A stretch of DNA of 64,000 bases from Deinococcales bacterium (GCA_013298595.1 JAAFIG010000025.1:1-64000); one strand, 5' to 3'. Counted from the stretch's first letter, positions 696-64,000 are shown. Notes: generated by a model not told the origin, from the letters alone. Made by a program: numbers and translations.

Positions 696-936
696 AAATA
701 CCTTTTGTTTTATCCATTTTATTTGCGTAGGTCACACCAAAAGCATTAGGGAAAGACCATGCAAATTCTTGTACAGCTCGGATTCGCTCCCATTTAATAT
801 CGTCAGGTAACTCGAGCCATATAGGGTCTAGTCCGTCATCATCAGCTTCAATCCATTCGAGTTTAGCTGGGGGTTTTTGGTTTGGTTCTTGGCGCATACA
901 TTTATTATAGTTGTTTTCGGTGCGTTTTGTTTCCAT
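652..936 (-). CDS. Small hypothetical protein, upstream partner of the nucleotidyltransferase
   Basis: 94-aa ORF overlapping the start of the nucleotidyltransferase; true start may be the internal MRQEPNQ. Confidence 0.5.
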   Translation of the reverse strand: METKRTENNYNKCMRQEPNQKPPAKLEWIEADDDGLDPIWLELPDDIKWERIRAVQEFAWSFPNAFGVTYANKMDKTKGIFVGLPRSQQNIRHD

Positions 937-978
937 AACAAGTTACTAAGTCTTGCTTCCCATATGCTATAAAACCTG

Positions 979-1401
979 ATGACGATTCTGGAAACCAAAC
1001 AACTCGAGTATCAGCAGTACCTCGAGCATCCCGAAAGCAACGGTTTGATTTACGGCTCGAGGTTGATGCGAGGCACGATTCGTCTCGAGCACAAATTATG
1101 TTTTTATCTCGAACACGAAACTGAAATCGGTGGCGTGATTTTACCAAAAACAGTTCGAGCCACGGTTTTTGATTTAACAACTGAAGAATGGCAAGCCAGT
1201 TTTGTATTGTTGCAACAAGCCAAGGACTTACTGATGCAGGAGTTACAACCAGATGGTTGGAATGTATTGCCAGCAGGTGGGCAACATGTACCAATTGCCC
1301 ATTTACATATTATTCCGCGTTTTAACGATGAAACTTTTGCTGGGCGTGGCATTCGTTGGTGGCTCAAAAGCCCAGATAACACTCGAGGAGCAAAAATATA
1401 A
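979..1401 (+). CDS. HIT-family protein
   Basis: HVPIAHLHIIPRF resembles the HxHxH histidine triad. Confidence 0.7.
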   Translation: MTILETKQLEYQQYLEHPESNGLIYGSRLMRGTIRLEHKLCFYLEHETEIGGVILPKTVRATVFDLTTEEWQASFVLLQQAKDLLMQELQPDGWNVLPAGGQHVPIAHLHIIPRFNDETFAGRGIRWWLKSPDNTRGAKI

Positions 1402-2072
1402 AACCAGTCGCGGTAATTACAGGTGCAACAGGCGGTATTGGCATGGCGTTAGCCAAGGAATTAGCACATCATCACTTAATTCTGCTAGGACGCGATGCAA
1501 TTAAACTCGAGGCACTTGTCAAAACCCTTCCAGACGCGCAAAGTATTGCGCTCGAGTTACGCCAACCAGATTCCTTTGCGGCTGCTCTCGAGCAAATTCC
1601 TATGATTGATAATCTGGTACATAATGCTGGTGTAGCAAACTTGGGTAGTATCGAACAAACCCCACTGACACTATGGCGTGAAATGCTGGAAACCAATGTA
1701 CTCGCAGTAGTTGAATTAACTCGAGTTTGTTTATTGCGTTTACGAGAAAGTAACGGGCAGGTGTTACTTGTTAATTCGGGTGCGGGTTTGACCGCTAATG
1801 CCAATTGGAGTGCTTACGCTGCCAGTAAATTTGCTTTGCGTGCCTTTGCCGATGCACTCAGTGCCGAAGAACCAAATCTACGAGTACAAAGTGTATACCC
1901 TGGACGGACAGCCACACAAATGCAGCAACATGTTCGTACCCAAGAAAACGCAGCATATCAGCCCGAACAGTACATTCAACCAAGCACATTGGCACAAACC
2001 ATGCGTGCCATGCTTGAATTACCTCGAGATAGTATTTTGCAACAAGTGATTGTCAATTGGCGCAATGCTTAA
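1398..2072 (+). CDS. Short-chain dehydrogenase/reductase; probable AUA start at 1398
   Basis: TGATGGIG Rossmann motif is encoded upstream of the track's ATG at 1443; later NAG and YAASK motifs. In-frame stop at 1377 and no ATG/GTG/TTG before the motif. Confidence 0.75.
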   Translation: MKPVAVITGATGGIGMALAKELAHHHLILLGRDAIKLEALVKTLPDAQSIALELRQPDSFAAALEQIPMIDNLVHNAGVANLGSIEQTPLTLWREMLETNVLAVVELTRVCLLRLRESNGQVLLVNSGAGLTANANWSAYAASKFALRAFADALSAEEPNLRVQSVYPGRTATQMQQHVRTQENAAYQPEQYIQPSTLAQTMRAMLELPRDSILQQVIVNWRNA

Positions 2073-2191
2073 CGCTGTAGCTTGGGAAGTTGAAGGTTGG
2101 CTCGAGACCGTGCAGATTTGGCTTGAGCAGCGTTTCTAAAGGATTTCGCAACTCGAGCACTGGTATACGCAATTACTGGCAACACCAACAA

Positions 2192-3580
2192 TCACATCAT
2201 CAGCATAACAAGCACAAAGATTTGCACAGGAAATAACCAAGTCTGCAAACCAACACTGTACAAAAGTGTACTTGGTAAAACAGCCAGTATTGCCGCGCCA
2301 AAACCACTTTCGACTCGAGACACAGGTAAACGCAGGGTTGCACTGAGTTTCTCGAGAATAAAAAGCGCTAATAATAATCGGGTTGTTGAAATCAGTACTT
2401 GCTCTACAGAAATAATTGGTAAAATAGCACTGAACAATAAACCAAACAGACCAATACTGCTTATCAGCACAGTACCAATCAAAGCTCTGCCCAAAGTGCG
2501 TTCTCGAGTTGGTATTGGTACGGGTAAGCCAAGCATTTCAGGCATTAACAAAGGTGTGGCAAGGCTGCGTAAAGCAATAATTTGCACAATGCCAAGAATA
2601 CTGCTGGCAATAAAATCGGTGTTGACCACAAAGGCAAAAACAAAAGTCAGCAATAACACAAGTTGCTCGAGCCAAGTTTGTCGGTATAAATTCAGGGCAT
2701 TGCGCCAAGCTAAAGCAGCAAATGGCGAGAAAGCTTTTGGAGCAACAATTGAGCGGGATGCTCGAGTTTTTTTGCGATGCAAAGCTTGTTTCCAGCGTCG
2801 CATTTCGCTGGTGTCGGGCAGGCTGCGTAAAACAATGGCATTTTGTTGTAATGCCCGAATTTGACTGAGAATCAGTGAATGGGTGGCAAATAAAGGAGGT
2901 AAATTTTGTTGCCAATTTCTGGCATTGATTACTGTACCCAGAACCAACAAGATAATGGGCAAAACAATACTTTCGAGTGCAGTACCAAAAAACGCACCAC
3001 TAATAACTGGTATCCCAAGTACCTCGAGTGCGATTGCCACAGCTAAAATAGGTAATAACCACCAACGCCAAGCAGCATTGGTGTAGCCAAGCCAACGCCA
3101 CTCGAGCAATGCCAATTGATACAGTGGCACAATTAGAAAAACAAGAAATTGGGGTTGACCAAAGAAAAACCAAGTTGCGGTCAACCAAATAAGAGCCACA
3201 ACCACTGCCCCAAAAAACATTTGCCCTCGAGCTAACCAAAACCCCCATTGCAACACCAATTTCGGCTCGAGTGGGGCAATAGCCAGACGCATCAAATCAC
3301 GACGATTCAGCAGCACAGGTGGCACATTGGTACGAAACGCTGCTAAGCCAAAACCGAGTACAACAATGACACTTATCGCTAAACGCAATTGCTCGAGTGG
3401 GACTGCCAATGGTTGTGGTTTAAGGATTTGCAAACCCGAAACCAAGTACACCACACCCCAAAAGAGTAACCATAAAACGGTTGCCCAACCAATACTCTGC
3501 CCAACCCAACGAAAATATGTGTCAAAAGCACGCTTCATTGTGTTCCAACGCAGTTGTTGAACAGCGGCTGTTGCGGTCAT
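2192..3580 (-). CDS. ABC transporter permease-like membrane protein
   Basis: Multi-TM ORF overlapping the ABC ATPase gene; start placed at MTATAAVQQ. Confidence 0.6.
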   Translation of the reverse strand: MTATAAVQQLRWNTMKRAFDTYFRWVGQSIGWATVLWLLFWGVVYLVSGLQILKPQPLAVPLEQLRLAISVIVVLGFGLAAFRTNVPPVLLNRRDLMRLAIAPLEPKLVLQWGFWLARGQMFFGAVVVALIWLTATWFFFGQPQFLVFLIVPLYQLALLEWRWLGYTNAAWRWWLLPILAVAIALEVLGIPVISGAFFGTALESIVLPIILLVLGTVINARNWQQNLPPLFATHSLILSQIRALQQNAIVLRSLPDTSEMRRWKQALHRKKTRASRSIVAPKAFSPFAALAWRNALNLYRQTWLEQLVLLLTFVFAFVVNTDFIASSILGIVQIIALRSLATPLLMPEMLGLPVPIPTRERTLGRALIGTVLISSIGLFGLLFSAILPIISVEQVLISTTRLLLALFILEKLSATLRLPVSRVESGFGAAILAVLPSTLLYSVGLQTWLFPVQIFVLVMLMM

Positions 3581-4236
3581 GCTGCCTCGACTTCGGAAAG
3601 TTCTCCTGCCTCGAGACGCAAATGTAAAAACCACCGAGCAGTCAGCCAAGTGCCAAGTAATTGTGCTTGATGAGCGCTGAGGAGTACTGTCCCGCCCTGT
3701 TGGACTCGTTCCTCGAGAATTGACAGCAAAACGGTTTGCGCAGCAACATCTAAGCCATTAAATGGCTCATCGAGCAACAACACAGGTGCATCTAAGGATA
3801 ACGCCAAAGCCAAAGATAATTTTTGACGCATCCCTCGAGAATGGGAATTGGGAAATTCAAGTAAATGCGAAGTTAATGAAAAACGCTCGAGTAATGCTAA
3901 ACAACGTGGTAACGCCTCGGGTTGCGAATAAATTCTGGCTTGAAACTCTGCGTGTTCTTGCAAAGTTAAATCCTCGTACAAAGCAGGTTCATCGGGCACA
4001 TACAACAATTTTTGTCGAGCCTCGAGCGAACCAGCCGCAAACCCCTGCACGGTAATCTCGCCCTTAAATGGTAGCAAACCAGTTATGGCACGCAACAACG
4101 TACTCTTACCAGCGCCATTTCCACCCTCGAGCCACAGTAAAACCCCAGCATCCACCAGTAAATTGGTGGTGTCAATAATGCAGCGATCAGCTAGGAATAC
4201 TTGGACATTCAACAGTTGTAAGTTGCTATCAGGCAC
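3577..4236 (-). CDS. ABC transporter ATP-binding protein
   Basis: Walker A GGNGAGKST, Walker B VLLLDEPFNGLD. Confidence 0.9.
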   Translation of the reverse strand: MPDSNLQLLNVQVFLADRCIIDTTNLLVDAGVLLWLEGGNGAGKSTLLRAITGLLPFKGEITVQGFAAGSLEARQKLLYVPDEPALYEDLTLQEHAEFQARIYSQPEALPRCLALLERFSLTSHLLEFPNSHSRGMRQKLSLALALSLDAPVLLLDEPFNGLDVAAQTVLLSILEERVQQGGTVLLSAHQAQLLGTWLTARWFLHLRLEAGELSEVEAA

Positions 4237-4298
4237 ATACGACTATACGCCACGGTAAAAAAGTTTTTGCCCTCGAGTACCATGATAATCTTGAATTC

Positions 4299-4532
4299 GT
4301 GAACCAAACTGATAGTATTGTTGAAATTTCACCACGATTAACCATATTTTTTGGTCGTGAGGGCAAAATGCTGAAACCCACAATCGCTGCCTTACTCGAG
4401 CAATTACCCGCAGATAAACTGGCTACAACCGATGCGATCTATCAAATTCTGATGACCCAATTCTCGGTGCAAGTAGTTTGCCCATACGATACCAAGCAAG
4501 CCCTCAAAGCCCTCGTACCAACCTCGAGTTAG
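4299..4532 (+). CDS. Hypothetical small protein
   Basis: 77-aa ORF in an otherwise uncovered gap, containing CTCGAG sites. Confidence 0.45.
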   Translation: MNQTDSIVEISPRLTIFFGREGKMLKPTIAALLEQLPADKLATTDAIYQILMTQFSVQVVCPYDTKQALKALVPTSS

Positions 4533-4558
4533 TCAGTTCAAACAGTATTTATTTGCGT

Positions 4559-7500
4559 TTAATTTGTCTCGAGTACAGGAAAAGTAAATTGAGCTGCTCC
4601 CGCTACTAAACTTGCAGGATCCTTGCGGTACAACTCGAGCAGAGCGATTTGCTCGGTTGTCCACATGGCATTGTTTTGGTATTCGTTAGAAGCACTGAGC
4701 ACCAAAGCCTCGAGTGCCAGTCGGCGCAGTATGTCGTGAGTATGATTGCGCCATGCCAACTCGAGGGTTTGTAACCCAAGTTGCGCTTGGCTGCGTTGCT
4801 GCTGAGCAATTTGTAACGACTCGAGCGCTGTGTGATAAATACCAGCATGGATTTCGGCAGCTTTTTGTATAAACCATTGTGCTGCGGCTTGCCATTCAAA
4901 GCACATCAGAACAACTTCGGTTTGTAATTGCAAAGTTAAAACATCTGGCTCGAGAGCACGCAAGATGGCACTAGCGCATTGCTGGCTGTGTCGTGGCAAC
5001 AAATATGGGCGCATTTCAATAAAGGAACGAACGGCTTGTTGCAAAATTTTTCGCTGCGGTAACAATTGCCCAAAAACACTTTCAATTAAGCTAGGATCTT
5101 CTGAACCATAAGTGGCAAAAAAAGCTCGAGTGGCTGCAATGGTTTGATCTAAGGTACTCGAGTTCAGCGCAGCCAATAATGGTTGAACTAACTGTTTTTG
5201 TGTGTCTTTGACAGGCAAAGATTGGCAACGATGCAGGGTTTGTAAACGCACATCGGGGTCTGGGTGTTGGAAAAGTTGCGCCAGTAAACCAATCAGTTTC
5301 TGCTGAGCATCCTCGGACAATCTTTCTACGGGAATCCGAATCACACCATCGGCAATGGCAGCATCGGGGTTTTGGGCAGCTTCTTGAAAAATCTGCCAAG
5401 TGATCGTGTTTTCGGGGTAATCCCATAAGCCACGCAGCAATGCCACCCGCACATCGCGGTGCAAATTCTTTGGATACATCTCGAGTAAAAAAGTCAGCGC
5501 GGTTTGGCTGCGAAGCTCACCAACCAAACGCAATACCTCTTTTGCCACAGTGACACGTTCGTACTTCATGGCTTGCAAAAACGCAAATGCTTTGGCTGGC
5601 ATCATTTTTAAGAACAACCGCCGCAGGGCATAAATCGCCACTCGAGCACGATCATCTTCTAAAGCACTCAGTAAAGGCTCGAGTCCGCGTTGCTCATCAA
5701 GCCGACCCAAGGCACGCAAGGCGGCATCTCGGATGGCAAGGCGCGAATTTTTAACATCGGCTAAACGTTCGATTGTGCTGGCAGCCGCGTTGGGAATGCT
5801 GGCAAGTTGCACCAAGACTTGCAAAATTGCGGGAATATCACGATCAGAATCTCGAGCCACTTCGTCCAGTGTTTGTACAAAAGTGCTTTGCTGTTGCGGC
5901 TGCCAACGAAAAAATCCTTGGCTGATTGGTAATACAAAACGTGTTTTTCCAGTACTGAATTTACCTTTGTAAGCTTGTCTGCCCAAAAATGGGGTCAGTA
6001 AATCTTGGCGGTGTAAATGCAAATGCTGATAGACCATCGCCACAACTGCCCAGCTCTGATCTTTTTGCAGTAACTCAGGCACAAGCCGATGAAAACGAGT
6101 GTGGTCGTGTTTTGCCAGCAACCATAAGGCTGTTTGGGCTGTGCCTGCTTGGGCTGTGCGTACCAGATTTTCGGCAAGCTCGAGAAAATCGGGTAGCACC
6201 CGCAAACGCTTACCCAACTGCATAAAAACATTGATGATATGATGATCGCGCTCTCGAGATTGCCATGCTTTGAGAACAGGAAGTAATGCCTTTGCAATAA
6301 CTTGAGCTTGGTTATCCGAAATAATCTGCCCAATGCCATACATGTTGATACTGCCGCGCTCCTTGACCAATGTACCAATCCATTGCGCTGCCCACAGAGC
6401 ATGAAACGGCAACAAACGAATGACGATTCGCTCGGCAGCTGCGGCTGTCGAATGCGATAAATCAGCGGCGTTGATGGCATCTTGTAACACCAACCCCAAA
6501 GACTCGAGCTGCGAAGATTGCCATGCCGCAGGTGGTAAATCGGCAATGGCATTTAACATCACTAAGCACACAGGGTCTTGTTCGTTTTTACGAAAACGCG
6601 CAAACTCGAGTACAGCATCGTATTTTGTTTGATCAAATTGGGCTGTGCGAATTTGATTTGGTACAGCTGCCACTCGGTATTCTGGTTTTGGATATTTCAG
6701 TATTGGCTCGAGCAAAGGCTTGGCTTCATCCCAACCCAACAAACCAGCATACTGAACCCGTTCCAATGGGCGCGTACTGAGGTTTGGATGCTCGAGATGA
6801 CGTTTGGCTTCTTGTTCCCGAATCTCTTGAGGGAGTAACCGCAATGTACTGGCAGCAATAAAACCTTGTGCATCTGCCCACGAACCACGAAAAGCCGCAA
6901 AAATAGGCACTCGAGCCGAAGCTGAAAAACGTTGTAAAAAATCTTCCAGATTTGTCAATGTTTTTGCTTGCTGGGCTTGTAAGCCAAGCACCTGTTGCAA
7001 AGATAAACGATGCGCCACACTAGAATAATCAAGTTGCATGACCTCTTCGGACTCGAGTTGAAAAATTGCTATTTCTTGTGGGCAAATACTAAGCAAAGGT
7101 TGTAAGCGCAAATTTGACAAGGCTGTGCTACGACGAATCGCTCGTAATAATTGTAAAACTCGAGTGGCTGAAAAAAATGCAAGCTGAGGTAATACTTGAT
7201 TCACTTGCCAGACCAAACGTGGATTTAATTCAGATGCTTGATTCGCTTTTTCCTCGAGCCAATCAGCAAACAGACCTGCATGATTCCGAGCCAAACGCGA
7301 CCATTCAAACGAGGCAGCTAACTCCATTAAATCAAGATGTTTTTTAACCACCTCTGCCGAAGCAAAACCGATGATCGCTGTAGCATCTCGAGTATTGCCA
7401 GCTCGCAGCAATTGCTCGAGGTACGCATCAGCAATTGCTGTCACAGTCCCCCGACGTTCAAAGGTGTACAACAAAACCAAACGTAGCTTGGCAGGCAATA

Positions 7501-7795
7501 AATCCAGCACGCCAAGCACATCCTCTGCTGACAACACCACAGGCGCTAAAGAAACCGCTAAACCCCGCACAAATTCAGAAGCATCCTGCAAACCACGCAA
7601 TACCCGTGCCACATTTTTACTCGAGAAACACGAAGCAAGCGCTAAACGCCGCTGATAGACATTGCCAGCATCAAAGGCTAACAATACCGCTTCATCAGGG
7701 TTTTTGCCGTACTCGACCATCAAACGCATACGATCCTGATGACATAACGGCTCGAGTTTTGCTAACAAATTTTGCATTGGTACAGCATAAAGCAA
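4559..7795 (-). CDS. Large HEAT-repeat-like protein (about 1070 aa)
   Basis: Repeated alpha-helical units such as RLAIRDAALRALGRLDEQRGLEPLLSALEDDRARVAIYALRRL. Confidence 0.65.
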   Translation of the reverse strand: MLYAVPMQNLLAKLEPLCHQDRMRLMVEYGKNPDEAVLLAFDAGNVYQRRLALASCFSSKNVARVLRGLQDASEFVRGLAVSLAPVVLSAEDVLGVLDLLPAKLRLVLLYTFERRGTVTAIADAYLEQLLRAGNTRDATAIIGFASAEVVKKHLDLMELAASFEWSRLARNHAGLFADWLEEKANQASELNPRLVWQVNQVLPQLAFFSATRVLQLLRAIRRSTALSNLRLQPLLSICPQEIAIFQLESEEVMQLDYSSVAHRLSLQQVLGLQAQQAKTLTNLEDFLQRFSASARVPIFAAFRGSWADAQGFIAASTLRLLPQEIREQEAKRHLEHPNLSTRPLERVQYAGLLGWDEAKPLLEPILKYPKPEYRVAAVPNQIRTAQFDQTKYDAVLEFARFRKNEQDPVCLVMLNAIADLPPAAWQSSQLESLGLVLQDAINAADLSHSTAAAAERIVIRLLPFHALWAAQWIGTLVKERGSINMYGIGQIISDNQAQVIAKALLPVLKAWQSRERDHHIINVFMQLGKRLRVLPDFLELAENLVRTAQAGTAQTALWLLAKHDHTRFHRLVPELLQKDQSWAVVAMVYQHLHLHRQDLLTPFLGRQAYKGKFSTGKTRFVLPISQGFFRWQPQQQSTFVQTLDEVARDSDRDIPAILQVLVQLASIPNAAASTIERLADVKNSRLAIRDAALRALGRLDEQRGLEPLLSALEDDRARVAIYALRRLFLKMMPAKAFAFLQAMKYERVTVAKEVLRLVGELRSQTALTFLLEMYPKNLHRDVRVALLRGLWDYPENTITWQIFQEAAQNPDAAIADGVIRIPVERLSEDAQQKLIGLLAQLFQHPDPDVRLQTLHRCQSLPVKDTQKQLVQPLLAALNSSTLDQTIAATRAFFATYGSEDPSLIESVFGQLLPQRKILQQAVRSFIEMRPYLLPRHSQQCASAILRALEPDVLTLQLQTEVVLMCFEWQAAAQWFIQKAAEIHAGIYHTALESLQIAQQQRSQAQLGLQTLELAWRNHTHDILRRLALEALVLSASNEYQNNAMWTTEQIALLELYRKDPASLVAGAAQFTFPVLETN

Positions 7796-7810
7796 AAAGA
7801 TTTGTAGTGT

Positions 7811-8176
7811 TTACGTAAGTATCGGTAACTCCTCGAGACTGTAATACACAGGGATACCACGTGCTAATGCAATGCGTACATCATTATCTGCGCCTTTGGA
7901 AACGCTTGGCAAACGCAGCACCGCTTGGCAGTGCTCGAGCAAACGATGCGCTGTTGGATAAACAATTTCCTCGTACAACGAATCACCGACTTTTGTTGAA
8001 CCAGCCACCTCGAGCAATGGCAAGGCAACCCATTCACCAATCATTGGGATATGCCCACGACGAAAAACCTGTAAGGCACTTTCCTCGAGCACCCGCAAAT
8101 TCGCCCGCATTTTGACAGGATCATCGTTGGTGCCAGAACGGTACGCACCTGCTACCAAAATCAACATCGGTTTCAT
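7811..8176 (-). CDS. DUF4406/nucleoside 2-deoxyribosyltransferase-like protein
   Basis: N-terminal LILVAGAYRSG and overall length. Confidence 0.5.
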   Translation of the reverse strand: MKPMLILVAGAYRSGTNDDPVKMRANLRVLEESALQVFRRGHIPMIGEWVALPLLEVAGSTKVGDSLYEEIVYPTAHRLLEHCQAVLRLPSVSKGADNDVRIALARGIPVYYSLEELPILT

Positions 8177-8276
8177 AAAACCTCTTTTCTGCTGTCACCA
8201 GCTCCTCGAGCATACGTGCAAAAACGTGTAATGTCAAGAAAAAACGTGCAACATCATGAAGTAGTACAATCCAACC

Positions 8277-9032
8277 ATGCTCACCTCGCAACGCAAACAA
8301 CTCATCCTCGAGCGCCTGAAAAAACACGGACAAATCATCGCCAAAGACCTCAGCGCCGAACTGGCATTATCCGAAGACACCATCCGCCGCGACCTGCGCG
8401 AACTCGCCGAAACAGGCGCACTGCAACGCGTCCACGGTGGCGCACTCCCAGCCTCACCCGCCACTGCCAACTTTGCCACTCGAGAAAACCTTGCCAGTCA
8501 AGCCAAAATCACCTTAGGGCGACACGCTGCCAAAAGCATCCGCCACGGACAAACCATCCTCGTAGATGGCGGCACCACCAACACCCAACTGGTACGACAC
8601 CTCTCCCCAGACCTCGAGATCACCATCATCACCCACAGCCCAAGTATCGCCATGGAACTGATAAACCACCCAAAAATCGAAGTGATCTTGCTTGGCGGCA
8701 AATTATTCAAACACTCCATCGTCAGTGTCGGTGCAGCCACCATCGAAGCCATCAGCCGCATACGTGCCGACACATTCTTCATGGGTATCACCGCTATTCA
8801 TACCAGCCAAGGCTTAACCACAGGTGATCTCGAGGAAGCCTACGTCAAACGCGCCCTGATGAACAGCGCCGCCGAAACCATCGTCCTTGCCAGCGGCGAA
8901 AAAATAGGTGCAGCCTCGCCCTACCAAATCGCACCACTTGGCAGCATCAGCGCTTTAATCACCGACTCGAGCTTACCAAAAGACCTGAAAAATGCGCTCA
9001 GCAAAGCAGGGGTTAATGTTACGGTGATATAA
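8277..9032 (+). CDS. DeoR/GlpR-family transcriptional regulator
   Basis: ERLKKHGQIIAKDLSAELALSEDTIRRDLRELAETGALQRVHGGA and sensor motif ILVDGGTTN. Confidence 0.92.
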   Translation: MLTSQRKQLILERLKKHGQIIAKDLSAELALSEDTIRRDLRELAETGALQRVHGGALPASPATANFATRENLASQAKITLGRHAAKSIRHGQTILVDGGTTNTQLVRHLSPDLEITIITHSPSIAMELINHPKIEVILLGGKLFKHSIVSVGAATIEAISRIRADTFFMGITAIHTSQGLTTGDLEEAYVKRALMNSAAETIVLASGEKIGAASPYQIAPLGSISALITDSSLPKDLKNALSKAGVNVTVI

Positions 9033-9092
9033 GGGCGAGCCTAAAATCTCGAGTCGTCATTGACAAGAAATATAGCGATACCTTAAAAAGAG

Positions 9093-9122
9093 CAGGGCGA
9101 CCACAAGGGTCGCGCCCTACAA
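9093..9122. repeat. REP-like unit cagggcgaccacaagggtcgcgccctacaa
   Basis: Imperfect palindrome shared with 11649, 13097, 24665. Confidence 0.8.
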
Positions 9123-9143
9123 TGTCAGAACCCTGATTTTAAC

Positions 9144-9170
9144 GTAGGGGAGGGGCTTGCCCCCTCCCTG
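9144..9170. repeat. REP-like unit gtaggggaggggcttgccccctccctg
   Basis: Shared with 11693, 15665 (reverse), 24525, 26388. Confidence 0.8.
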
Positions 9171-9275
9171 TTTTGATGTATTGATCGAATTTTTACAATA
9201 GATTTTGTAGGTACCGTCAACCTGAGATCAGATTAGAAAAAAGAAAAACAATTCAATTGGAATACCTAACACTAC

Positions 9276-10136
9276 CTACGGTTGAACAAAAACCTCGAGT
9301 GCAGCTAAGACTGTGTTGGCATGGGCTTGAATGGTGTTCTCGAGATGCTTGTTGTACCCTCCTGCCATTAAACTCACCACGGGAATACCTTGGTTTTGGC
9401 AAAACTGAAAAACTCGAGTATCCCGAGTTTTTGCTCCGCTTAGCGTTAAGGCAAAACGACCAAATTGGTCTCGCTCGAGAACATCCACACCTGCTAAGTA
9501 AAAAATGATTTGTGGTTGGAATTGCTCGAGTACAGGTAGCACCTGCTCCTCGAGCATCTGCAAATAGGTGGTATCGGTGACACCATCGGGTAAGCCAATA
9601 TCGAGACTCGAGCTTTCCTTATGAAACGGATAATTGCGTTCACCATGCACCGAAATGGTGAACACTCGAGGGTCTTGCTGAAAAATAAAAGCCGTGCCGT
9701 TACCTTGGTGCACATCTAAATCCAGAATCAGTATTCGCGCTAGACCTGTTTGCAATAACTCGAGTGCGGCAATGGCAACATCGTTGAGAACACAAAATCC
9801 TTCGCCGTGATCGGGGTAGGCATGGTGTGTACCACCAGCTAAATTTACCCCTAAGCCAAGGTTCAGGGCATCTCGAGCGGCGGCTAATGTGCCACCCGCT
9901 GCGCGTAACGCTCTTTCGACCAGCATCTCCGACCACGGGAAGCCAAGCAAACGCGTTTCCTTGGTGTTTAACGTGCCAAAACGCAATTTTTTTAAATACT
10001 CGAGATGATGCACCCGTTCGACCAAATGCCAATCGGCTCGAGGGGGTTCTAGTACAGGTAAACCAGTTTGTTCGACCAAAAAACGTACCCCAGCGTATTT
10101 ACTCATTGGGAATTTATGCCCAGCAGGTAAAGGCAT
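9276..10136 (-). CDS. Histone deacetylase-superfamily protein
   Basis: GGTHHAYPDHGEGFCVLNDVAIA and LDLDVHQGNGTA motifs; start at MPLPAGHKFP. Confidence 0.9.
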   Translation of the reverse strand: MPLPAGHKFPMSKYAGVRFLVEQTGLPVLEPPRADWHLVERVHHLEYLKKLRFGTLNTKETRLLGFPWSEMLVERALRAAGGTLAAARDALNLGLGVNLAGGTHHAYPDHGEGFCVLNDVAIAALELLQTGLARILILDLDVHQGNGTAFIFQQDPRVFTISVHGERNYPFHKESSSLDIGLPDGVTDTTYLQMLEEQVLPVLEQFQPQIIFYLAGVDVLERDQFGRFALTLSGAKTRDTRVFQFCQNQGIPVVSLMAGGYNKHLENTIQAHANTVLAALEVFVQP

Positions 10137-11592: not shown

Positions 11593-11648
11593 CGGCTCGA
11601 GTTTAGAAAAGAGAACTCAGGCGAGAGTCATTTCATTCCATTTTCGGA

Positions 11649-11678
11649 GCAGGGCGACCACAAGGGTCGCCCCTACAA
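11649..11678. repeat. REP-like unit
   Basis: gcagggcgaccacaagggtcgcccctacaa. Confidence 0.8.
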
Positions 11679-11692
11679 GAACGATGTTTTTT

Positions 11693-11717
11693 GTAGGGGC
11701 GGGGCTTGTCCCCTCCC
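11693..11717. repeat. REP-like unit
   Basis: gtaggggcggggcttgtcccctccc. Confidence 0.8.
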
Positions 11718-11771
11718 GTGCGGAGATTGAACGATGGCAACTTTGCCCGAGGTCTACTATCAAATGACACT

Positions 11772-13078: not shown

Positions 13079-13096
13079 GATTACCCCGTTTTTGGG

Positions 13097-13125
13097 CAGG
13101 GCGACCACAAGGGTCGCCCCTACAA
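13097..13125. repeat. REP-like unit between pyrB and pyrC
   Basis: cagggcgaccacaagggtcgcccctacaa. Confidence 0.8.
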
Positions 13126-14198: not shown

Positions 14199-14762
14199 TC
14201 ATCCCAATACCTCGCCGCGTAATTCGTACAATTCCACAGCATCTTCACCATCGGTCTCGAGCAGTTTGACTTTGACAATCTCTTGACGGCTGGTGGGAAT
14301 ATTCTTACCAACATAATCGGCTCGGATTGGTAATTCTCGGTGTCCTCGGTCTATCAGTACCGCCAATTGAATACTCGAGGGTCTGCCAAGGTCTATCAGT
14401 GCATCAAGTCCAGCTCGAGCGGTGCGTCCAGTGTAAAAAACATCATCCACCATGACAATACGGCGGCTCGAGATATCAAATGGTACTTCGGTTTGGCGCA
14501 CAATGGGTTGTAAGCCAACTTCCGATAAATCATCGCGGTACAAGGTGATATCAAGTTTGCCATTGGGTACTTGCACACCTTCAAGCTCAACGATTTTCTG
14601 GGCAATACGGGCAGCTAATGGAATGCCACGCGTGTGCACACCGACAATGGCAAGGTTTTGAGCACCTTTGTTGCGTTCAATAATCTCATGGGCAATGCGG
14701 GTCACAGCTCGGCGAATATCATCTGGTTCGAGCAAACGGGCTTTGAATTCAGCGTTTTTCAT
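14199..14762 (-). CDS. pyrR: PyrR regulator/uracil phosphoribosyltransferase
   Basis: [38 protein letters not shown]; start at [11 protein letters not shown]. Confidence 0.95.
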
Positions 14763-15690: not shown

Positions 15691-15705
15691 TAAAAACATC
15701 GTCTT

Positions 15706-15733
15706 GTAGGGGAGACCCTTGTGGTCTCCTTGT
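15706..15733. repeat. REP-like unit
   Basis: gtaggggagacccttgtggtctccttgt. Confidence 0.8.
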
Positions 15734-47623: not shown

Positions 47624-50600
47624 CTAGGGCATTAAGACACTGACTTTATTACCAACAATAAACCAGAGTTTGCCATTGCTATCGCTAATAATGTCTGAAA
47701 CACTATTATTACTACTTACTGAAATTATTTGTGGTTGCACATTTGAAGATGTTGTTGTGATGGTACGTCTTCCAAGAGTCGCTCCTGAACTATAATTACC
47801 CACACACCAAAAATAACCATCACTACCAACGGCTAATTGATTGCCACAATTGCCAATAGATGTAATGGTGCCATCAAATGCAATTCGAGTAATACTGCCA
47901 TTACCAATCCAAATAGCATTATCATGAACAAGAATTTTATTACCAGAAATATTGGCTAGTAGTGTAATAGAACCACTGGGTGTAATACGTCCAACGCCAC
48001 CATAGTATTGGGTAAACCAGAAGTTACCATCCGTTGCTAAGACGATGTCACTACTAACAGAGAAGCCTCCAAAGCCAAAATTACCTGCAGGCACAGAAAA
48101 TTCAGTTGCATTTGTGCCATCGGGTTGAATACGTCCAATTTTTGCTGAATCTGTTCGTAAGAACCAAATGTTACCATCTGCTCCAAAGGTTAAAGCAGCA
48201 GGTTGAACACCACTTGGTAAAGCTATTTCAGAGGTTGCATTCGCTGGTGTTACCTTGACAAATTTATTTGAAAAAGAAATCCATACGTTTCCGAAAGCAT
48301 CAAGTGTCATATCTCGAGCACTGTCATACCCAACAAAGTTTGGAATTGCAACTCGAGACGCGGAAGTATTGGCACTGACTTTTACTAAGTTCAAGGCTGG
48401 GGATGAACCCGTGAAATCAGTCTCGAGGAAATACACATCACCATTGTTTCCTTTAAGTAGATTTGTTGGGTTACTGGCATTAAATTCAGTGACACCATAG
48501 TAAGTGTACTTGGTTAATGCTGAAACAACTGATGTACCTCGAGTATTCTGCATTGTTACATCTACTGTGCTAGCAATACTAGCTGGTACAACAACAGTCA
48601 TTGAATTTGAACTGTTTAACGTTTTACTAGTAACTTCGCTGGTTCCGAAAAAGACTCGAGTATTAATATCAAAATTTGAACCATTGATGATGATGTTGTT
48701 GCCACCTGTTGCAACCCCACCTTGTGCTATCAGATCAGTTATAACTGGGCGAAAATCAAGTGTAGTAGATGCAACGGAAGCCCCGTAAAATATATCTGGA
48801 TTAAATTGTATTGCGTAAACTCGGAATTTGTAAGTGCGAGTTGTATCAAGGGCTAGGTCATACCAGTTTTGTGGACTATAGCTAGATGCTCTTTCTTTGA
48901 TAATTACACCTGTTTGAGCATCAATAATTTCTGTGGAATATTCTGTCTGTATTAGTTGACCTGGTGGTGTTACAGGTAAGACATCCCAACTTAGAGAAGC
49001 GTATGCAGTTGACGAGTTACGAGCAATTACATTTTTTACGCTTGCTAATCTCTGGCTTGCATCTATTGCAAAGGTTACACCACCAGTTGTTTTTGTGGCA
49101 CGTCTGACTGTATATGTTCCAGAAACAACAGGTATTTCACTGAGGATGGTTGTTGGATAACCAAACCCATTTTTATATGTGGCAACCAGTGGTTGGTCAT
49201 TGTTCCAACTCGGTGGTCCAACAATTGTGACTTGGAAATCAGTGGATGCCATTCCACTATAAGATAAACGAATGGCAGTGCCCAGCGATTGATCCTCAAG
49301 GTTATATGTACTACCTGAAGCGATTAAACCACCAACATTAATATACATATAATTAGTTATAAAGGTCGCACTTTTGACACTTGCTCTGATTTGTACAGCA
49401 CCTGTTTTTTTAGCGGTTACAACTCCATTAGGGTTTATTTCAAGCACACTTGGATTATCAGAAGACCAGTTAATATCTGATGCTAAAAATTGATAACCAT
49501 CTTCTGCGATAGCTGACAAGGTTGTGGTATCGCCGACCTCGAGTGCCGTATTTGCGCTATTAATTGTCATACTTCCTGTTGGCGTGAAGCGCCAAGTGAC
49601 ATCTGTAGGTGTTGGATCAGTTGAAATGCGGACAGTTGTGCTATTGATAACTTCAAAAAGTACTGTATTCCAACCTTGCTGAAAAGTGGCATCAACAGTT
49701 TGGGTTTGCCCATTACTGGTACATGAGCCTTTCCAAGTACTCGCTTTATCAACATAGATATAATTTACTCGTTTGAAACCAGTTGGTGTCGGTCCAGTAA
49801 AATTATTGTCTAAATTAGAACGATATAGCTGTCCACTCATTTTATCTGTCGCTGTTACAATATCAAAAGTAGCAGATGCACCTTTGGTATCCGCAGGTGT
49901 TAGAACCAAAGTTGTTCCACAAGTGGAAGAAGTAAATATGGGATCCAAATTTGTTAATGCTGGTGGTAATGTTAGATCAAGTTCTCCTGCCTGAGTTAAT
50001 GTTCCTTGAGCAATATTTTGAGCATTGCCATTCACATAAACTTTTCCTTTTAATACTCGAGCACCTCGAGTCCAAGAGTCTAATGTTCCCATAATTTTAT
50101 CAGCAGGTTCTTGAGCCACATTGATAGTCACGGTTTTTGTTGTTTCACCTTGACTATTTATTGCCGTAAGCGTGTATGTTTTAGTTGTAGTTAAGCTGAC
50201 TACTTTATCTGTTCCTGTGACAGTTCCAACGCCTTGGTCTATGCTCAGACTATCTGCGCCTGTTACTTGCCAAGCTAATGTACTCGAGCCACCACCAAAG
50301 GGCAGTGTGGCTGGACCTGCGGTGAATGCTGTAATAGTCGGTTTGGCTTGAGCTACGGTTACAACAACTGTTTTCTGGGTATTGCCAGCGCTGTTCGTTG
50401 CTGTTAGGGTATAGGTGGTGGTGGTATTGGTAGTAATTGTTTTTTGATTTCCTGTAACTACACCAACATTTTGATCAATTGCTAAACTTGTTGCTCCGTC
50501 TACTTGCCATGCAAGTGTTGTTTCTCCACCGCCTATCGGTAATGACGATGGGCTTGCAGTCAATGTATTTATCGTGGGTGGTGTCACCACTGGTGCTGGA

Positions 50601-50656
50601 CATGCCACAAGAATGGCTGCTAATGCTGTCAGAAGATACTGCTGTAGTTTTTTCAT
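47624..50656 (-). CDS. Large lipoprotein with Ig-like/IPT and virginiamycin-B-lyase-like beta-propeller regions
   Basis: Lipobox LLTALAAILVAC; two near-identical N-terminal Ig-like repeats; IRPDGTNATEF/GNFWFTQ repeats. Confidence 0.75.
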   Translation of the reverse strand: MKKLQQYLLTALAAILVACPAPVVTPPTINTLTASPSSLPIGGGETTLAWQVDGATSLAIDQNVGVVTGNQKTITTNTTTTYTLTATNSAGNTQKTVVVTVAQAKPTITAFTAGPATLPFGGGSSTLAWQVTGADSLSIDQGVGTVTGTDKVVSLTTTKTYTLTAINSQGETTKTVTINVAQEPADKIMGTLDSWTRGARVLKGKVYVNGNAQNIAQGTLTQAGELDLTLPPALTNLDPIFTSSTCGTTLVLTPADTKGASATFDIVTATDKMSGQLYRSNLDNNFTGPTPTGFKRVNYIYVDKASTWKGSCTSNGQTQTVDATFQQGWNTVLFEVINSTTVRISTDPTPTDVTWRFTPTGSMTINSANTALEVGDTTTLSAIAEDGYQFLASDINWSSDNPSVLEINPNGVVTAKKTGAVQIRASVKSATFITNYMYINVGGLIASGSTYNLEDQSLGTAIRLSYSGMASTDFQVTIVGPPSWNNDQPLVATYKNGFGYPTTILSEIPVVSGTYTVRRATKTTGGVTFAIDASQRLASVKNVIARNSSTAYASLSWDVLPVTPPGQLIQTEYSTEIIDAQTGVIIKERASSYSPQNWYDLALDTTRTYKFRVYAIQFNPDIFYGASVASTTLDFRPVITDLIAQGGVATGGNNIIINGSNFDINTRVFFGTSEVTSKTLNSSNSMTVVVPASIASTVDVTMQNTRGTSVVSALTKYTYYGVTEFNASNPTNLLKGNNGDVYFLETDFTGSSPALNLVKVSANTSASRVAIPNFVGYDSARDMTLDAFGNVWISFSNKFVKVTPANATSEIALPSGVQPAALTFGADGNIWFLRTDSAKIGRIQPDGTNATEFSVPAGNFGFGGFSVSSDIVLATDGNFWFTQYYGGVGRITPSGSITLLANISGNKILVHDNAIWIGNGSITRIAFDGTITSIGNCGNQLAVGSDGYFWCVGNYSSGATLGRRTITTTSSNVQPQIISVSSNNSVSDIISDSNGKLWFIVGNKVSVLMP

Positions 50657-50784
50657 ACTTTTCCCTGCTCCTAATTTATTGTTCATAGATTTTAAACTAG
50701 CCAAATCGAAACTCGTCCTCTAGGTCAGAAGACGAGTAATTATACGATGGTTATTAGAATTTCGTTCCCTAATTTGACCTAACC

Positions 50785-51825
50785 TTATGCGTAACTCGCC
50801 ATGACTTGCTCGAGACTTTCACGGCTTGGGCGGGTCATGCTTTCTGGCAGTAATGCCAGTGCTGTATCATGAACGTGCTCGGTGTCTATCAGAGTTCTGC
50901 GGCTTTCGTTCAGGTACACCAATCCTGTGATCAGTTCACCGCTGCGTTGCCCATCCGCAAGGAGTTTTAAGGCGCTGAGTTTATCGGTTGGGTTGTGGTC
51001 TTTAGAAAGTTTTTTCAGTTGAATGGTTGGACCTTCGTGGAGTTTGACGCTGAGCACTTCGCCTGGTTCGTAATCTACAGCAATTTCCGAGAATTCTTGA
51101 ACAAAGGTGATGTCGTGGATTGGCACTTCGTGTTCTTTGCCGTAACTGTAACTTTTGGTGCTCTTGTCGTCGTTGTTGAAAGTCACGCATGGTGAAATAA
51201 TGTCGAGTACAGCGATGCCCTTAAAGCTCATGGCAGCTTTTAAGAGTTCGGTGACTTGTTTGGCATCACCAGCGAAACTGCGTGCCACAAAACCTGCACC
51301 TGCAATGATTGCTTCGGCGCATAAATCTAGGGGCGGTTGTTCGTTGGTACCAGCGTATTTGAGGGTTTGCCCTTCGTCGGCTGTGGCGCTGAATTGTCCT
51401 TTGGTTAAGCCGTACACACCGTTGTTCTCGATGATGTACACCATTGGTACATTGCGACGTACTGCGTGCTTGAATTGCCCTAAGCCAATGCTACCGCTGT
51501 CGCCATCGCCTGATACACCAATGGCGGTTTGGTGGCGTTGTGCCAGCATTGCACCAGTAGCAACACTTGGCATACGACCATGCACAGTGTTGATACCGTG
51601 AGCGCCATTAAGGAAGTAAGCTGGGCTTTTGCTCGAGCAGCCAATACCGCTGAGTTTAATCACTTCGTGGGGTTTTAAGCCAACTGAGTAAGCAGCGTCT
51701 ATGATTCGCATTGAGATGCTGTCATGACCACAACCTGGGCATAGGGTGCTGGGTAAACCTTTGTAATCGGCTTTGGTTAAACCAATGCTGTTGGTGCTTG
51801 GAGCTGGTACTGTTGCAGCAGTCAT
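50785..51825 (-). CDS. 2-oxoacid:ferredoxin oxidoreductase beta subunit
   Basis: STLCPGCGHDSI; GDGDSGSIGLGQFKHAVRRN. Confidence 0.93.
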   Translation of the reverse strand: MTAATVPAPSTNSIGLTKADYKGLPSTLCPGCGHDSISMRIIDAAYSVGLKPHEVIKLSGIGCSSKSPAYFLNGAHGINTVHGRMPSVATGAMLAQRHQTAIGVSGDGDSGSIGLGQFKHAVRRNVPMVYIIENNGVYGLTKGQFSATADEGQTLKYAGTNEQPPLDLCAEAIIAGAGFVARSFAGDAKQVTELLKAAMSFKGIAVLDIISPCVTFNNDDKSTKSYSYGKEHEVPIHDITFVQEFSEIAVDYEPGEVLSVKLHEGPTIQLKKLSKDHNPTDKLSALKLLADGQRSGELITGLVYLNESRRTLIDTEHVHDTALALLPESMTRPSRESLEQVMASYA

Positions 51826-51826
51826 G

Positions 51827-53644
51827 TTATTTCACTCCTTTAACTCGAGTTGCCACAAATTCGCCGCTGAGTGGCAAACCATCGCAATGTGCGATGCTGT
51901 GGATGCGGGTAGCAAATTCTGGGTATTCGGTGCGAAGCAAAATTGCTAATTGACCATGTTGGTTCATTTCGACCACAATGACTTTGTCATGAGCTGCAAT
52001 GAAATCGTGGACTTCTTTTCCAAAAGGTAAAGCTCTGACGCGCATATAGTCAGAAGGGACACCATCTTTGGCGAGCATGGCTCGACCTTCGACCATCGCT
52101 GGGTCTACACTGCCCATTGCAATTAAACCAAGGCTTGCACCTGTGCTGTCAATCATTGGTTTTGGCACGATGTCTCTGGCATGGTTGTGCTTGCGATCTA
52201 AACGCGCCAAGTTTTTCTGCCAATCTTCTGGGCGTTCAGAGTATGTGGCAATATCGGTATGACCTGTCCCTCGAGTGAAGTAGGCTGCGCCCATTGCGTC
52301 TGTACCGGGTAATGTGCGTGGTCCTACACCCAAGCCGTCTTCGTCTTTATAACGAGCGAAGGTATGTCCTGCTTTAATCACATCTTCGGCACTGAGCACC
52401 TTGCCGCGATTCATTGGTTCAGTTGGGTATTCAAATGGCTCTGACATCCAGATATTCATGCCAAGGTCAAGGTCGGAGTTAACAAAAACAGGGGTTTGCA
52501 ATTGATCGGACAAATCAAAAGCACGCCAACCGAATTCAAAGCATTCCTTGGGGTCTGATGGTAACAAGACAATGTGCTTGGTATCGCCATGCGAGAGGTA
52601 ATAGGTGCTGAGCAAATCGCCTTGGGACACTCGAGTTGGTAAACCTGTACTTGGACCCATGCGTTGCACATTCCAAATCACCAGTGGCACTTCGGCAAAG
52701 TACGCGTACCCAGCAAACTCAGACATTAAACTGATACCCGGACCCGATGTGCTGGTCATGGCTCGAGCGCCGCCCCAACCCGCTCCGATTAACATACCAA
52801 TGGCAGCTAATTCGTCTTCGGCTTGGACAATGGCAAAGGTGGCTTTACCCGTTTCTTTATCTTGGCGTAATTTTGGCATCCATTCGATCATGCCGTCAGC
52901 AAGGCTGGTGGCTGGTGTAATGGGGTACCATGCAAGCACAGTACAACCACCGTAAATACCACCCAAGGCACCTGCCATATTGCCATCAATTAAAATTTTA
53001 CCTTTGGTGGCATCCATTCGTTCAACACGGTACGGATCAGATTTAACGATATTGGCAGCGCACCAATCAAAAGCAGCTTTGGCGATATTAAAGTTACTTT
53101 CGACCACTTTGGTTTTACCAGCAAAATTCTTGTTCAAGTACGCGTAAATGGTATCCATTTCGATACCAATCACTTGGGCGACCGCACCCACATACACCAA
53201 GTTGACCATGCGATCACGGAACTTCGGGTCTACATTTTGTTCTTTCATGATTGCGTTAGCTGGCAAGGCATAGACAGAAACATCATCTCTCGAGCCAACC
53301 AATTTAATGTTATCGGGGTAGAACATCACACCACCACTGGGCAAGGTGCGGAAATCTTCCTCGATGGTTTTAGCATTAAACGCCACCAGAATTTCAGAAT
53401 TATCCCGACGAGCAGTAAAACCTGCCCCACTGGCACGAATCGAATACCAAGTTGGTAAACCCTTAATGTTACTGGGAAATAAATTCTTAGCATTGACTGG
53501 AATACCCATTTGGAACAAGGCATTGACCAGAGTAGCGTTAGCGGTTTGCGAACCGGAACCGTTGACGGTTGCCACGTTAATCGTAAAATCATTGATCACA
53601 GGGGCACGATTGGTACTGCTAGGGCGTTCAGCGAGTTGCGTCAT
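51827..53644 (-). CDS. 2-oxoacid:acceptor oxidoreductase alpha subunit
   Basis: ALGGIYGGCTVLAWYPITPATSLADG; MTSTSGPGISLMSEF. Confidence 0.93.
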   Translation of the reverse strand: MTQLAERPSSTNRAPVINDFTINVATVNGSGSQTANATLVNALFQMGIPVNAKNLFPSNIKGLPTWYSIRASGAGFTARRDNSEILVAFNAKTIEEDFRTLPSGGVMFYPDNIKLVGSRDDVSVYALPANAIMKEQNVDPKFRDRMVNLVYVGAVAQVIGIEMDTIYAYLNKNFAGKTKVVESNFNIAKAAFDWCAANIVKSDPYRVERMDATKGKILIDGNMAGALGGIYGGCTVLAWYPITPATSLADGMIEWMPKLRQDKETGKATFAIVQAEDELAAIGMLIGAGWGGARAMTSTSGPGISLMSEFAGYAYFAEVPLVIWNVQRMGPSTGLPTRVSQGDLLSTYYLSHGDTKHIVLLPSDPKECFEFGWRAFDLSDQLQTPVFVNSDLDLGMNIWMSEPFEYPTEPMNRGKVLSAEDVIKAGHTFARYKDEDGLGVGPRTLPGTDAMGAAYFTRGTGHTDIATYSERPEDWQKNLARLDRKHNHARDIVPKPMIDSTGASLGLIAMGSVDPAMVEGRAMLAKDGVPSDYMRVRALPFGKEVHDFIAAHDKVIVVEMNQHGQLAILLRTEYPEFATRIHSIAHCDGLPLSGEFVATRVKGVK

Positions 53645-61915: not shown

Positions 61916-61983
61916 ACCCGCACCGTAACATAACCACCACGTGTATTGCTTGCGCGAAACGGCGTACTCGAGTAGCGTGACGT

Positions 61984-62607
61984 ATGAGCATTGAACGTGA
62001 ATTAAAACTGACAGGTGTGTTACCTAAACTTGATGGTGTCTCGAGTATCGCTGGGGTGAAGTTGCAGTTGCAACGCATTGAAAAACAAATCAATACGTAT
62101 TTTGATACGCCTGATTTGCAACTCAGACGTTCAGGCTCGAGTTTACGCTTGCGGCGTGTGGATACAGGAAACCACGTGTTTACATGGAAAGGACAAAGCC
62201 AAATTGTCAATGGTTGGCACAGCAAAGCAGAAATCGAATTACCTGCTGGCAATGCCCAAAGTATCCTCGAGTTACAACACCCAGAAATTCTCGAGCAGCT
62301 TCACGGTATTGCACTGACAGACCTTGTTTGTATTTGCCGTTTTGATACCACCCGACACGTGTATACCCTCGAGAACATCGGCGAACTCGCCTTAGACGAT
62401 GTTCAAGTTAAGCAAGATGAAACCATTCTCGAGACGTTTTCCGAACTCGAGCTAGAAGCCCTGCCTGATGCCCCCGAAACCACTTTGCAAAATGTGGCAT
62501 TGACCTTAACTGCTATGGGCAGACTCGAGCCAAGTAAGTTAAGTAAATCGGCTCGAGCACTAGCAGCAGTTGAGCGGGAGATTAAGAGGAAAGTGCAAAG
62601 CTCGTAA
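61984..62607 (+). CDS. CYTH-domain protein
   Basis: SIERELKLTG… YFDTPDLQLRRSGSSLRLRR. Confidence 0.88.
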   Translation: MSIERELKLTGVLPKLDGVSSIAGVKLQLQRIEKQINTYFDTPDLQLRRSGSSLRLRRVDTGNHVFTWKGQSQIVNGWHSKAEIELPAGNAQSILELQHPEILEQLHGIALTDLVCICRFDTTRHVYTLENIGELALDDVQVKQDETILETFSELELEALPDAPETTLQNVALTLTAMGRLEPSKLSKSARALAAVEREIKRKVQSS

Positions 62608-62666
62608 GTCACAGCTTTGTGCTCCTTCTTGTTGATAGCTTGACAATTGTTCGGTATGCTTTGTGC

Positions 62667-64000
62667 ATGAAATCTTCACAATTTACGGTTGCAGCGGTTT
62701 TACTTTTTGCCATTGGGGCAGTGGGTATGGGTGTTGCTTTGCGTGGTACACAAGGTGAAACTCGTCCAAGTGCAACACATTCAATGATGATGCGTGCCGA
62801 TAGTAACGGCAGTACTGTGCCGCCTTTGCTCAGTTACATTCCCAATTATTACGAGCATGTCAAACCAATTCTCGAGGCAAGTTGTACGGGATGCCATGTG
62901 GAAAATGGAATTGCTCCGTTTAGTTTAACCAGTTTTGCTGATGCCAAAGCTAACCATCGGCAGATTTACTTGGATGCCAGAGCGCAACGCATGCCACCTT
63001 TTCCACCTAATGGTGAAAGCCCCAAGTTTAAGCACGAAATGCGGCTATCCAAGGATGAAATCGCCATTCTTGCCAATTGGTCTTGGAGTGGTGCGCCCGA
63101 AGGCAGCAGCAAAAAAGCCGTATCGGCTACTTCTCGAGTGGCTCGAGTGAGTGTGCGTTCCGATTTGAAATTATCGATGCCGAAAGTCTTTAAGCCAAAC
63201 GCGCAACTTTCCGATGAGTACCGCTGCTTTTTACTTGACACCAAGCTCGAGGGTGAGCGTTTTATCACGGGGTACGACATTCTGCCCGGCACTGCCAGTG
63301 TGGTGCATCATGTGCTGATGTTTGAACTCGAAGCTGGCTTGGTCGCCGAAGCTAAACGACTCGAGGCTGCCGAAGGTGATAACCGTGACGGCTACACTTG
63401 TTTTGGTGGTCCACGAGTTGCCAATGGTTTGCAACCAATTGGGGCTTGGGCACCGGGTAGCCCCGCTGTTAAATTCCCTGAAGGTACTGGTGCCAAATTA
63501 CGGGCTGGTTCGCAATTACTGATGCAAGTCCATTACAACCTGTCTAATGGTTCTCAACCCGATCAGAGCGCGGTTAAACTTGAGCTGTCACCCGTTGGTA
63601 CTCGCTTAAAAGCCTTACTTAACTTTGCGCCCAGTGCACCCGTCGAATTGCCTTGCCCGGGTGCCTACCCTAGCGATAGCAAAAGCAATTGTCATCGTGA
63701 AGCAGCTTATGAACGCGTACTGGCACTGAATCCATCCAATAGTAACAAAAACCGTCGGGCTGGCAACACCCTGAAAAATTGTGTGCGTAACCTCGAGCAA
63801 TACATCAACGGCTCGGATGCTACCCGTATCGAAACAATCTGCGAATACCCAGTCCCAGCCAACCTATCACTGCATGGCTTAGCTGGACACATGCACTACC
63901 TTGGTAAAACCATTAAACTCGAGATCAACCCAACTCGAGACACCCGTAAAGTGCTGCTGGACATTCCTAATTGGGATTTTCATTGGCAAGGTTTTTACTG
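62667..64000 (+). CDS. Cytochrome-c/copper type II monooxygenase-like secreted protein, truncated by the window end
   Basis: Open frame from ATG to the edge; ILEASCTGCHVENGIAPF heme site; VHHVLMFE and MQVHYN Cu-binding-like motifs. Confidence 0.75.
   Translation, partial: MKSSQFTVAAVLLFAIGAVGMGVALRGTQGETRPSATHSMMMRADSNGSTVPPLLSYIPNYYEHVKPILEASCTGCHVENGIAPFSLTSFADAKANHRQIYLDARAQRMPPFPPNGESPKFKHEMRLSKDEIAILANWSWSGAPEGSSKKAVSATSRVARVSVRSDLKLSMPKVFKPNAQLSDEYRCFLLDTKLEGERFITGYDILPGTASVVHHVLMFELEAGLVAEAKRLEAAEGDNRDGYTCFGGPRVANGLQPIGAWAPGSPAVKFPEGTGAKLRAGSQLLMQVHYNLSNGSQPDQSAVKLELSPVGTRLKALLNFAPSAPVELPCPGAYPSDSKSNCHREAAYERVLALNPSNSNKNRRAGNTLKNCVRNLEQYINGSDATRIETICEYPVPANLSLHGLAGHMHYLGKTIKLEINPTRDTRKVLLDIPNWDFHWQGFY

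Follow-up and report, generated by a model that had tools for sequence, protein, structure and literature searches.

What is the palindrome CTCGAG doing in the stretch of DNA analysed here (64 kb, hereafter the window), where it recurs every few hundred bases or less, and what keeps it there? The original prediction, made from this stretch alone, was that CTCGAG is a genome-wide, actively maintained word, analogous to the highly iterated palindrome (HIP) of cyanobacteria, HIP1 (GCGATCGC), but with another sequence.

Abundance of CTCGAG in the window, its genome and its order

The dispersed excess, predicted at about 30-fold or more, was real: the word count gave 409 copies in 64 kb (Table 1), while the expectation from base composition at the window's 46% GC was 0.21 per kb. 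The density had been put at about 8 per kb over most of the window, which was too high, since the value over the whole window was about 6 per kb. Local readings by eye came close, with 81 copies counted in positions 1–10,000 (about 85 predicted) and 9 in the gene of a CYTH-domain protein (about 10 predicted). For trpE the reading was exact, including the three off-frame contexts: seven of its 10 copies were CTC-GAG, two NCT-CGA-G and one NNC-TCG-AG. The bases flanking the copies in the window were mixed, as had been thought, and the commonest 6-mers after CTCGAG were overlaps of CTCGAG itself.

Table 1. Coordinates of the features considered in the window
Feature	Position	Strand	Remarks
Dispersed CTCGAG copies	557–63939	.	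n = 409; 6.4 per kb, about 31-fold over base composition
trpE	22644–24098	+	Pfam Anth_synt_I_N and Chorismate_bind; 10 CTCGAG sites
CYTH-domain gene	61984–62607	+	9 CTCGAG sites, distributed over the three frames
MutL gene	15721–17448	+	15 CTCGAG sites, 8.7 per kb; third gene example
Low-density stretch	48500–53000	.	2.7 CTCGAG per kb; large protein with Vgb_lyase-like part, 2-oxoacid:ferredoxin oxidoreductase gene pair
Short REP-like elements	9085–9170, 11642–11719, 13089–13125, 15705–15732, 24160–24205, 24524–24551, 24657–24693, 26387–26414		no CTCGAG
Small tandem array, 30-bp units	24591–24680		
Small tandem array, 24-bp units	14758–14829		

The genome of the window (G000, an assembly of 68 contigs) contained 27,159 copies in 4,582,226 bases (4.58 Mb), i.e., 5.9 per kb or about one per 170 bases, versus only 15 copies of the reversed word GAGCTC, so that the word is indeed genome-wide. 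Statistics were computed on samples of 464 kb of G000, 95–227 kb of each relative in its family (f1) and 45 kb of the enriched genome G012, the genes being those called by a simple script rather than taken from curated annotation. A second-order Markov model with the CTCGAG sites masked predicted 40 copies in the 464 kb, against 2,723 observed (ratio 69). The maximal-order model, applied to the window, predicted 350 against 409 observed; this expectation was near the observed value because CTCGAG itself dominates the 5-mers of the window and swamps the model. The observed/expected ratio (O/E) of CTCGAG in the G000 sample was 29.7, and the next palindrome reached only 2.5. Overall, the excess over chance was 30 to 70 times.

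Six of the 111 genomes compared from the order, which is very probably Deinococcales, were enriched in CTCGAG (about 6–8 per kb). They belong to two families: all four genomes of f1, in three genera, had 26,619–28,178 copies each, and two genomes of family f2, both of genus g11, had 14,690 (58% complete) and 21,868. Each of the six contained 2–25 copies of GAGCTC, while each of the remaining 105 genomes had fewer than 3.7 CTCGAG per kb and at least 257 GAGCTC. The density was alike in enriched genomes with GC contents of 45, 50, 54 and 60%. The clade is apparently one of uncultured relatives of Deinococcus and Thermus. In a search of genome contigs for a four-copy CTCGAG pattern, the matches listed came mostly from GC-rich genomes, plus two independent Deinococcales records (L166 and L201) in which the signature was complete: 11.2 kb held 93 sites, an excess of 71-fold relative to the Markov model, with GAGCTC absent and an O/E of 0.22 for other palindromes. 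Dense CTCGAG together with absent GAGCTC thus offers a ready diagnostic for assigning metagenome contigs to the clade.

Two side observations concern other sequences. In G004 (f2, genus g4), the density of CTCGAG was 0.32 per kb, with 90 copies versus 174 expected from codon shuffling, i.e., below the codon prediction and opposite to its relatives. Among the viral contigs searched, none was clearly a virus bearing the signature of the clade; a 110-kb viral contig (IMGVR_UViG_3300018422_000001; L306, L327) carried CTCGAG at about 4.7 per kb and lacked GAGCTC (17 expected), yet its excess over the Markov model was just 4.5-fold.

Codons, proteins and turnover of the sites

Could the word simply follow from a preference for the codons, or the codon pair, CTC-GAG (Leu-Glu), of the kind seen in haloarchaea and GC-rich relatives? 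Frame 0 was the commonest one in the G000 sample (1,395 of the 2,456 coding sites), and it also held most CTCGAG in G008, in the Truepera-like G009 and in L157, the most CTCGAG-rich haloarchaeal stretch. However, synonymous codon shuffling of the 464 kb yielded only 203 ± 10 sites, 12-fold fewer than observed, and frame by frame the expectation was 125/55/23 versus 1,395/595/466, so that the off-frame sites of frames 1 and 2 exceeded it 11- and 20-fold. Moreover, intergenic density equalled coding density in G000 (5.43 versus 5.92 per kb), with corresponding values of 6.65 versus 5.93 in G003 and 10.7 versus 5.97 in G002; the intergenic excess over composition was about 34-, 31- and 38-fold, respectively, in G000, G003 and G002. 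The word therefore lies within genes, in all three frames, and between genes, as originally described, and its excess is irreducible to codon or codon-pair use. An explanation of that kind, rejected by the shuffle and by the off-frame and intergenic excess, retains practically no probability.

The Leu-Glu dipeptide showed O/E values of 2.3–2.5 in three members of family f1, with 0.95–1.06 for Glu-Leu, and lower Leu-Glu values in relatives (1.10 in G004, 1.32 in G009 and 1.61 in G008). Since Leu-Glu is raised, Glu-Leu is not and the relatives are lower, it can be said that CTCGAG alters proteins. The Leu and Glu residues of Leu-Glu pairs were shared with outgroup orthologs slightly less frequently than other Leu and Glu residues (e.g., 0.59 versus 0.70, and 0.42 versus 0.57, in the comparison with G004); the lower sharing was equal where other codons specify the pair, and the numbers are small. 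HIP words can in this way bias protein composition, which bears on studies of codon and protein evolution.

Concerning the fate of individual sites, 55% of the CTCGAG sites were kept between G000 and G001 (71% nucleotide identity) versus 18–20% of other 6-mers. The conservation beyond the synonymous background that the original prediction proposed to look for at orthologous sites was nevertheless superficial, as it vanished with amino acids held constant. Where both species had Leu-Glu, the frequency of CTCGAG in the second species, given its presence/absence in the first, was 0.76/0.72 (G001), 0.67/0.67 (G002) and 0.79/0.81 (G003). Occupancy is thus independent between species, and the apparent conservation is an equilibrium occupancy: at any time about 70–80% of Leu-Glu positions are CTCGAG, whichever ones. 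Position-specific conservation was accordingly rejected. Of the predicted active maintenance, what stands is upkeep rather than drift, as indicated by the constant density in the clade and the near-absence from foreign-looking AT-rich genes; what does not stand is conservation site by site.

The counts of near-matches were informative about the intact word. Words two mismatches away were at background (O/E 0.90–1.04). Among one-mismatch words in family f1, transitions as a class were raised 1.35–2.1-fold (in the largest sample, at each of the three positions), and transversions stayed at 0.81–1.15. The transition excess is a halo of sites decaying through ordinary mutation. No excess of C>T decay occurred at either cytosine, so there is no sign of m5C, i.e., of a deamination-prone methylated cytosine, at the site, and a bias from m5C deamination was unsupported by these counts. 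Spacing between sites was random in intergenic DNA, and in coding DNA there was a deficit of close pairs, best read as protein constraint because the intergenic spacing is random; regular spacing or repulsion between sites, found in coding DNA but absent from intergenic DNA, was discarded. AT-rich genes, presumed recent imports, contained 0.65–1.0 CTCGAG per kb, and a methyltransferase gene with a GC content of 0.32 (L044) contained none. From the few sites in such genes, it seems that sites accumulate at a slower pace than genes are acquired.

Altogether, these results show that a force keeps precisely this 6-mer at a density of about 6–8 per kb, acting on each intact site separately and blind to coding or non-coding location, position, frame, base composition and the presence of neighbouring sites. 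This force balances point mutation and changes proteins, its strength corresponding to a scaled advantage (2Ns) of about 3.6–4.2 per site. The value is the logarithm of site excess divided by neighbour excess (about 36–67) and, as derived from neighbour counts, presumes reversible mutation at equilibrium. That the maintenance is genome-wide, clade-wide, codon-independent and position-blind, the statistical core of the case, can be considered almost certain.

Two other candidates were rejected. In a half-site model (CTC and GAG at other spacings), no other spacing stood out. Interspersed REP-like repeats were found, as potential carriers of the word, to lack CTCGAG. These are intergenic inverted repeats of the GTAGGGG...CCCCTAC type, plus a 37-bp core near 24165, and they recur with about 85–97% identity in G001 and G003.

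Palindrome avoidance and the search for an agent

The other palindromic 6-mers, pooled after masking CTCGAG, were depleted in the enriched genomes (O/E 0.49 in G000, 0.34 in G001, 0.31 in G002, 0.41 in G003 and 0.49 in G012), versus 0.79, 0.83 and 0.98 in G008, G009 and G004, outside the clade; mirror repeats, as a control, gave 0.88–1.12. GAGCTC was the most thoroughly removed palindrome across the sampled family f1 (1/45, 0/12, 1/40 and 0/25). This general avoidance can be interpreted as what heavy restriction would leave, which would make CTCGAG the single exempt palindrome. As a separate observation, GAGCTC, GGCGCC, CCGCGG, TCGCGA and GCGCGC were almost gone from the CTCGAG-rich genomes, and less so from relatives.

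Both m6A and m5C methyltransferases that target CTCGAG are known (PMC12700378), and in cyanobacteria each genome with an alternative HIP has a cognate methyltransferase (PMC4390886). Searches with PF00145, PF01555, PF07669, PF02384 and PF02086, which covered enriched genomes and several others, gave no cluster of clear orthologs spanning all five enriched genomes examined, an absence that is not firm as the enriched genomes are 58–94% complete and unrelated enzymes could share a specificity. The only methyltransferase common to three of them (G000, G001 and G012) was a cytosine-5 enzyme (L009), the best plasmid relative of which adjoins the gene of an HpaII-family endonuclease. This enzyme thus looks HpaII-like (CCGG), in agreement with the depletion of CCGG (O/E 0.09), and was rejected as the CTCGAG enzyme. 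The missing shared methyltransferase would be the main departure of this case from the known HIPs.

The recognition word of the XhoI/PaeR7I restriction-modification systems is identical, CTCGAG, but restriction sites are normally avoided whereas this one has accumulated, and the XhoI endonuclease family was absent from the enriched genomes searched. A methyltransferase family linked to XhoI (query from the G009 locus) was full-length in only one enriched genome, G002. Neither family was found to be shared across the enriched genomes, and both were rejected as the common agent. In the Truepera-like G009, an intact XhoI-linked methyltransferase lies beside an XhoI endonuclease homolog with two stops (L434, G009:C1:1093934-1096226). 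Another locus worth mentioning, in G000, is a type II restriction-modification pair in which a 308-aa endonuclease (PADLOC family PDLC03405) precedes a methyltransferase of Eco57I type (L110, G000:C11:23.4 kb).

Comparison with known systems and possible explanations

By its statistical features, CTCGAG is a highly iterated palindrome of a Deinococcales-related clade, within the loose definition of the HIP class: one palindrome stands far above other words, genome-wide, in coding and non-coding DNA and independently of codons. The literature searched contained no published description of a CTCGAG HIP, in line with the original impression of a system not described before. HIP1 and CTCGAG are alike as short dispersed palindromes in massive excess, clade-wide, in coding and non-coding DNA and with no known function. 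They are nevertheless different words, as the HIP1 core CGATCG was absent from the window and occurred only 9 times in the 464 kb. HIP1 has 8 bases rather than 6, its single-base deviations concentrate at the outer positions whereas the transitions of CTCGAG are raised at all three, and its density is 300–2,700 per Mb (PMC4390886) versus about 5,900 per Mb for CTCGAG, which moreover belongs to another phylum, with no shared cognate methyltransferase found. CTCGAG also resembles the alternative HIPs reported by Elhai in 2015, namely GGCGCC in Calothrix PCC 7103, GCSGC in Cyanothece PCC 7822 and RCCGGY in Oscillatoria PCC 10802 (PMC4390886), which are strict or near-strict palindromes of 5–6 bases in the place of HIP1, with an O/E of similar magnitude (GGCGCC in Calothrix D253 reaches 15.5, versus 20–30 for CTCGAG). 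However, these are fully or mostly GC words of single cyanobacterial strains, each with its cognate methyltransferase, whereas one CTCGAG word is kept by six species in two families for which no common methyltransferase was found.

The case shows that a position-blind force keeps words of this kind and that they coexist with a general avoidance of palindromes. It also permits comparisons that are out of reach in cyanobacteria, since this second HIP is denser, lies in another phylum, spans several GC backgrounds and has relatives of low density within its order. To our knowledge, HIP1 has remained unexplained since 1995, and nearly all the evidence on HIPs comes from one phylum, in which word, methyltransferases and ancestry are confounded.

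Our leading guess, to be taken as tentative, is that upkeep is explained by a methylation-linked self mark. As its reader we envisage a recognition protein resembling those of type II systems, most probably a DNA methyltransferase, or else methyltransferase-guided repair or recombination. Methylated CTCGAG would mark self DNA, new sites arising by mutation or recombination would be preferentially kept, and CTCGAG, being always modified, would be the one palindrome exempt from avoidance in the clade. This model is supported by the constant density in six genomes of two families over GC contents of 45–60%, the intergenic excess, random spacing, codon-shuffle excess and raised Leu-Glu, and also by the species-independent occupancy, the transition-only halo and the few sites in AT-rich genes. 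Palindrome avoidance in the clade, the cognate methyltransferases of cyanobacteria (PMC4390886) and the existence of CTCGAG methyltransferases (PMC12700378) add to it. It is weakened by the want, within the five Pfam families searched, of a methyltransferase common to the five enriched genomes examined, the HpaII-like character of the shared enzyme, the unshared XhoI family and the absence of any sign of m5C. A bolder version, which we consider improbable, would give this non-cyanobacterial lineage a dedicated self-marking system for CTCGAG, inherited vertically and independent of the usual DNA methyltransferase families, that spares the word from the palindrome purge and reshapes the proteome.

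Self-marking has to be weighed against forces of other kinds. Competence machinery or a recombination nuclease might prefer DNA with CTCGAG, such that imported conspecific fragments would spread sites of no local use; this is unlikely, though quite conceivable. Thermus and Deinococcus are naturally competent, which counts for such a drive, and a T2SSF/PilC-type gene is present in the window. Molecular drive has been proposed for the uptake sequences of Haemophilus and Neisseria (PMC1939737). Like CTCGAG, the uptake sequences of Pasteurellaceae and Neisseriaceae are words repeated genome-wide that a position-blind drive can spread, and a drive predicts equal action on coding and intergenic DNA, an effect on proteins and near-absence from presumed imports. 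On the other hand, known uptake words occur at about 1 per kb, and the density of CTCGAG is several times higher. They are also non-palindromic, with 9–12 bases or longer and graded mismatch enrichment (PMC1939737), whereas CTCGAG is a strict palindromic 6-mer with its two-mismatch forms at background and its transversion neighbours about there too.

It is equally conceivable, and just as unlikely, that the site is directly selected because a dimeric protein (of the nucleoid, of repair-end-processing, or a self-mark reader) needs frequent CTCGAG, with a small advantage per site. The intact word exceeds every type of neighbour alike, and the three genera show a similar excess, as under weak selection. 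However, a function served by density should give diminishing returns between close sites, while intergenic spacing is random and the spacing effect of coding DNA is not repeated there; there is no candidate protein to name, and CTCGAG, being its own reverse complement, cannot provide the strand polarity that a Chi site needs. A mutational or short-patch repair bias has very little probability. Very short patch repair shifts word frequencies in E. coli, but a Vsr-like correction of T:G to C:G at CTTGAG should deplete CTTGAG and CTCAAG, both of which were instead up about 2-fold (316 versus 155 expected in G000, 2.04-fold), and such a correction could not affect every type of neighbour equally. 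Vsr-like correction was thus rejected by the neighbour counts.

Outside the order, four Natrialbaceae (haloarchaeal) stretches, L157, L209, L159 and L184, had 3–6 CTCGAG per kb and few GAGCTC, with frame 0 dominant. In L209 and L159, CTCGAG also occurred off frame and outside ORFs, and a weaker HIP is possible in these two.
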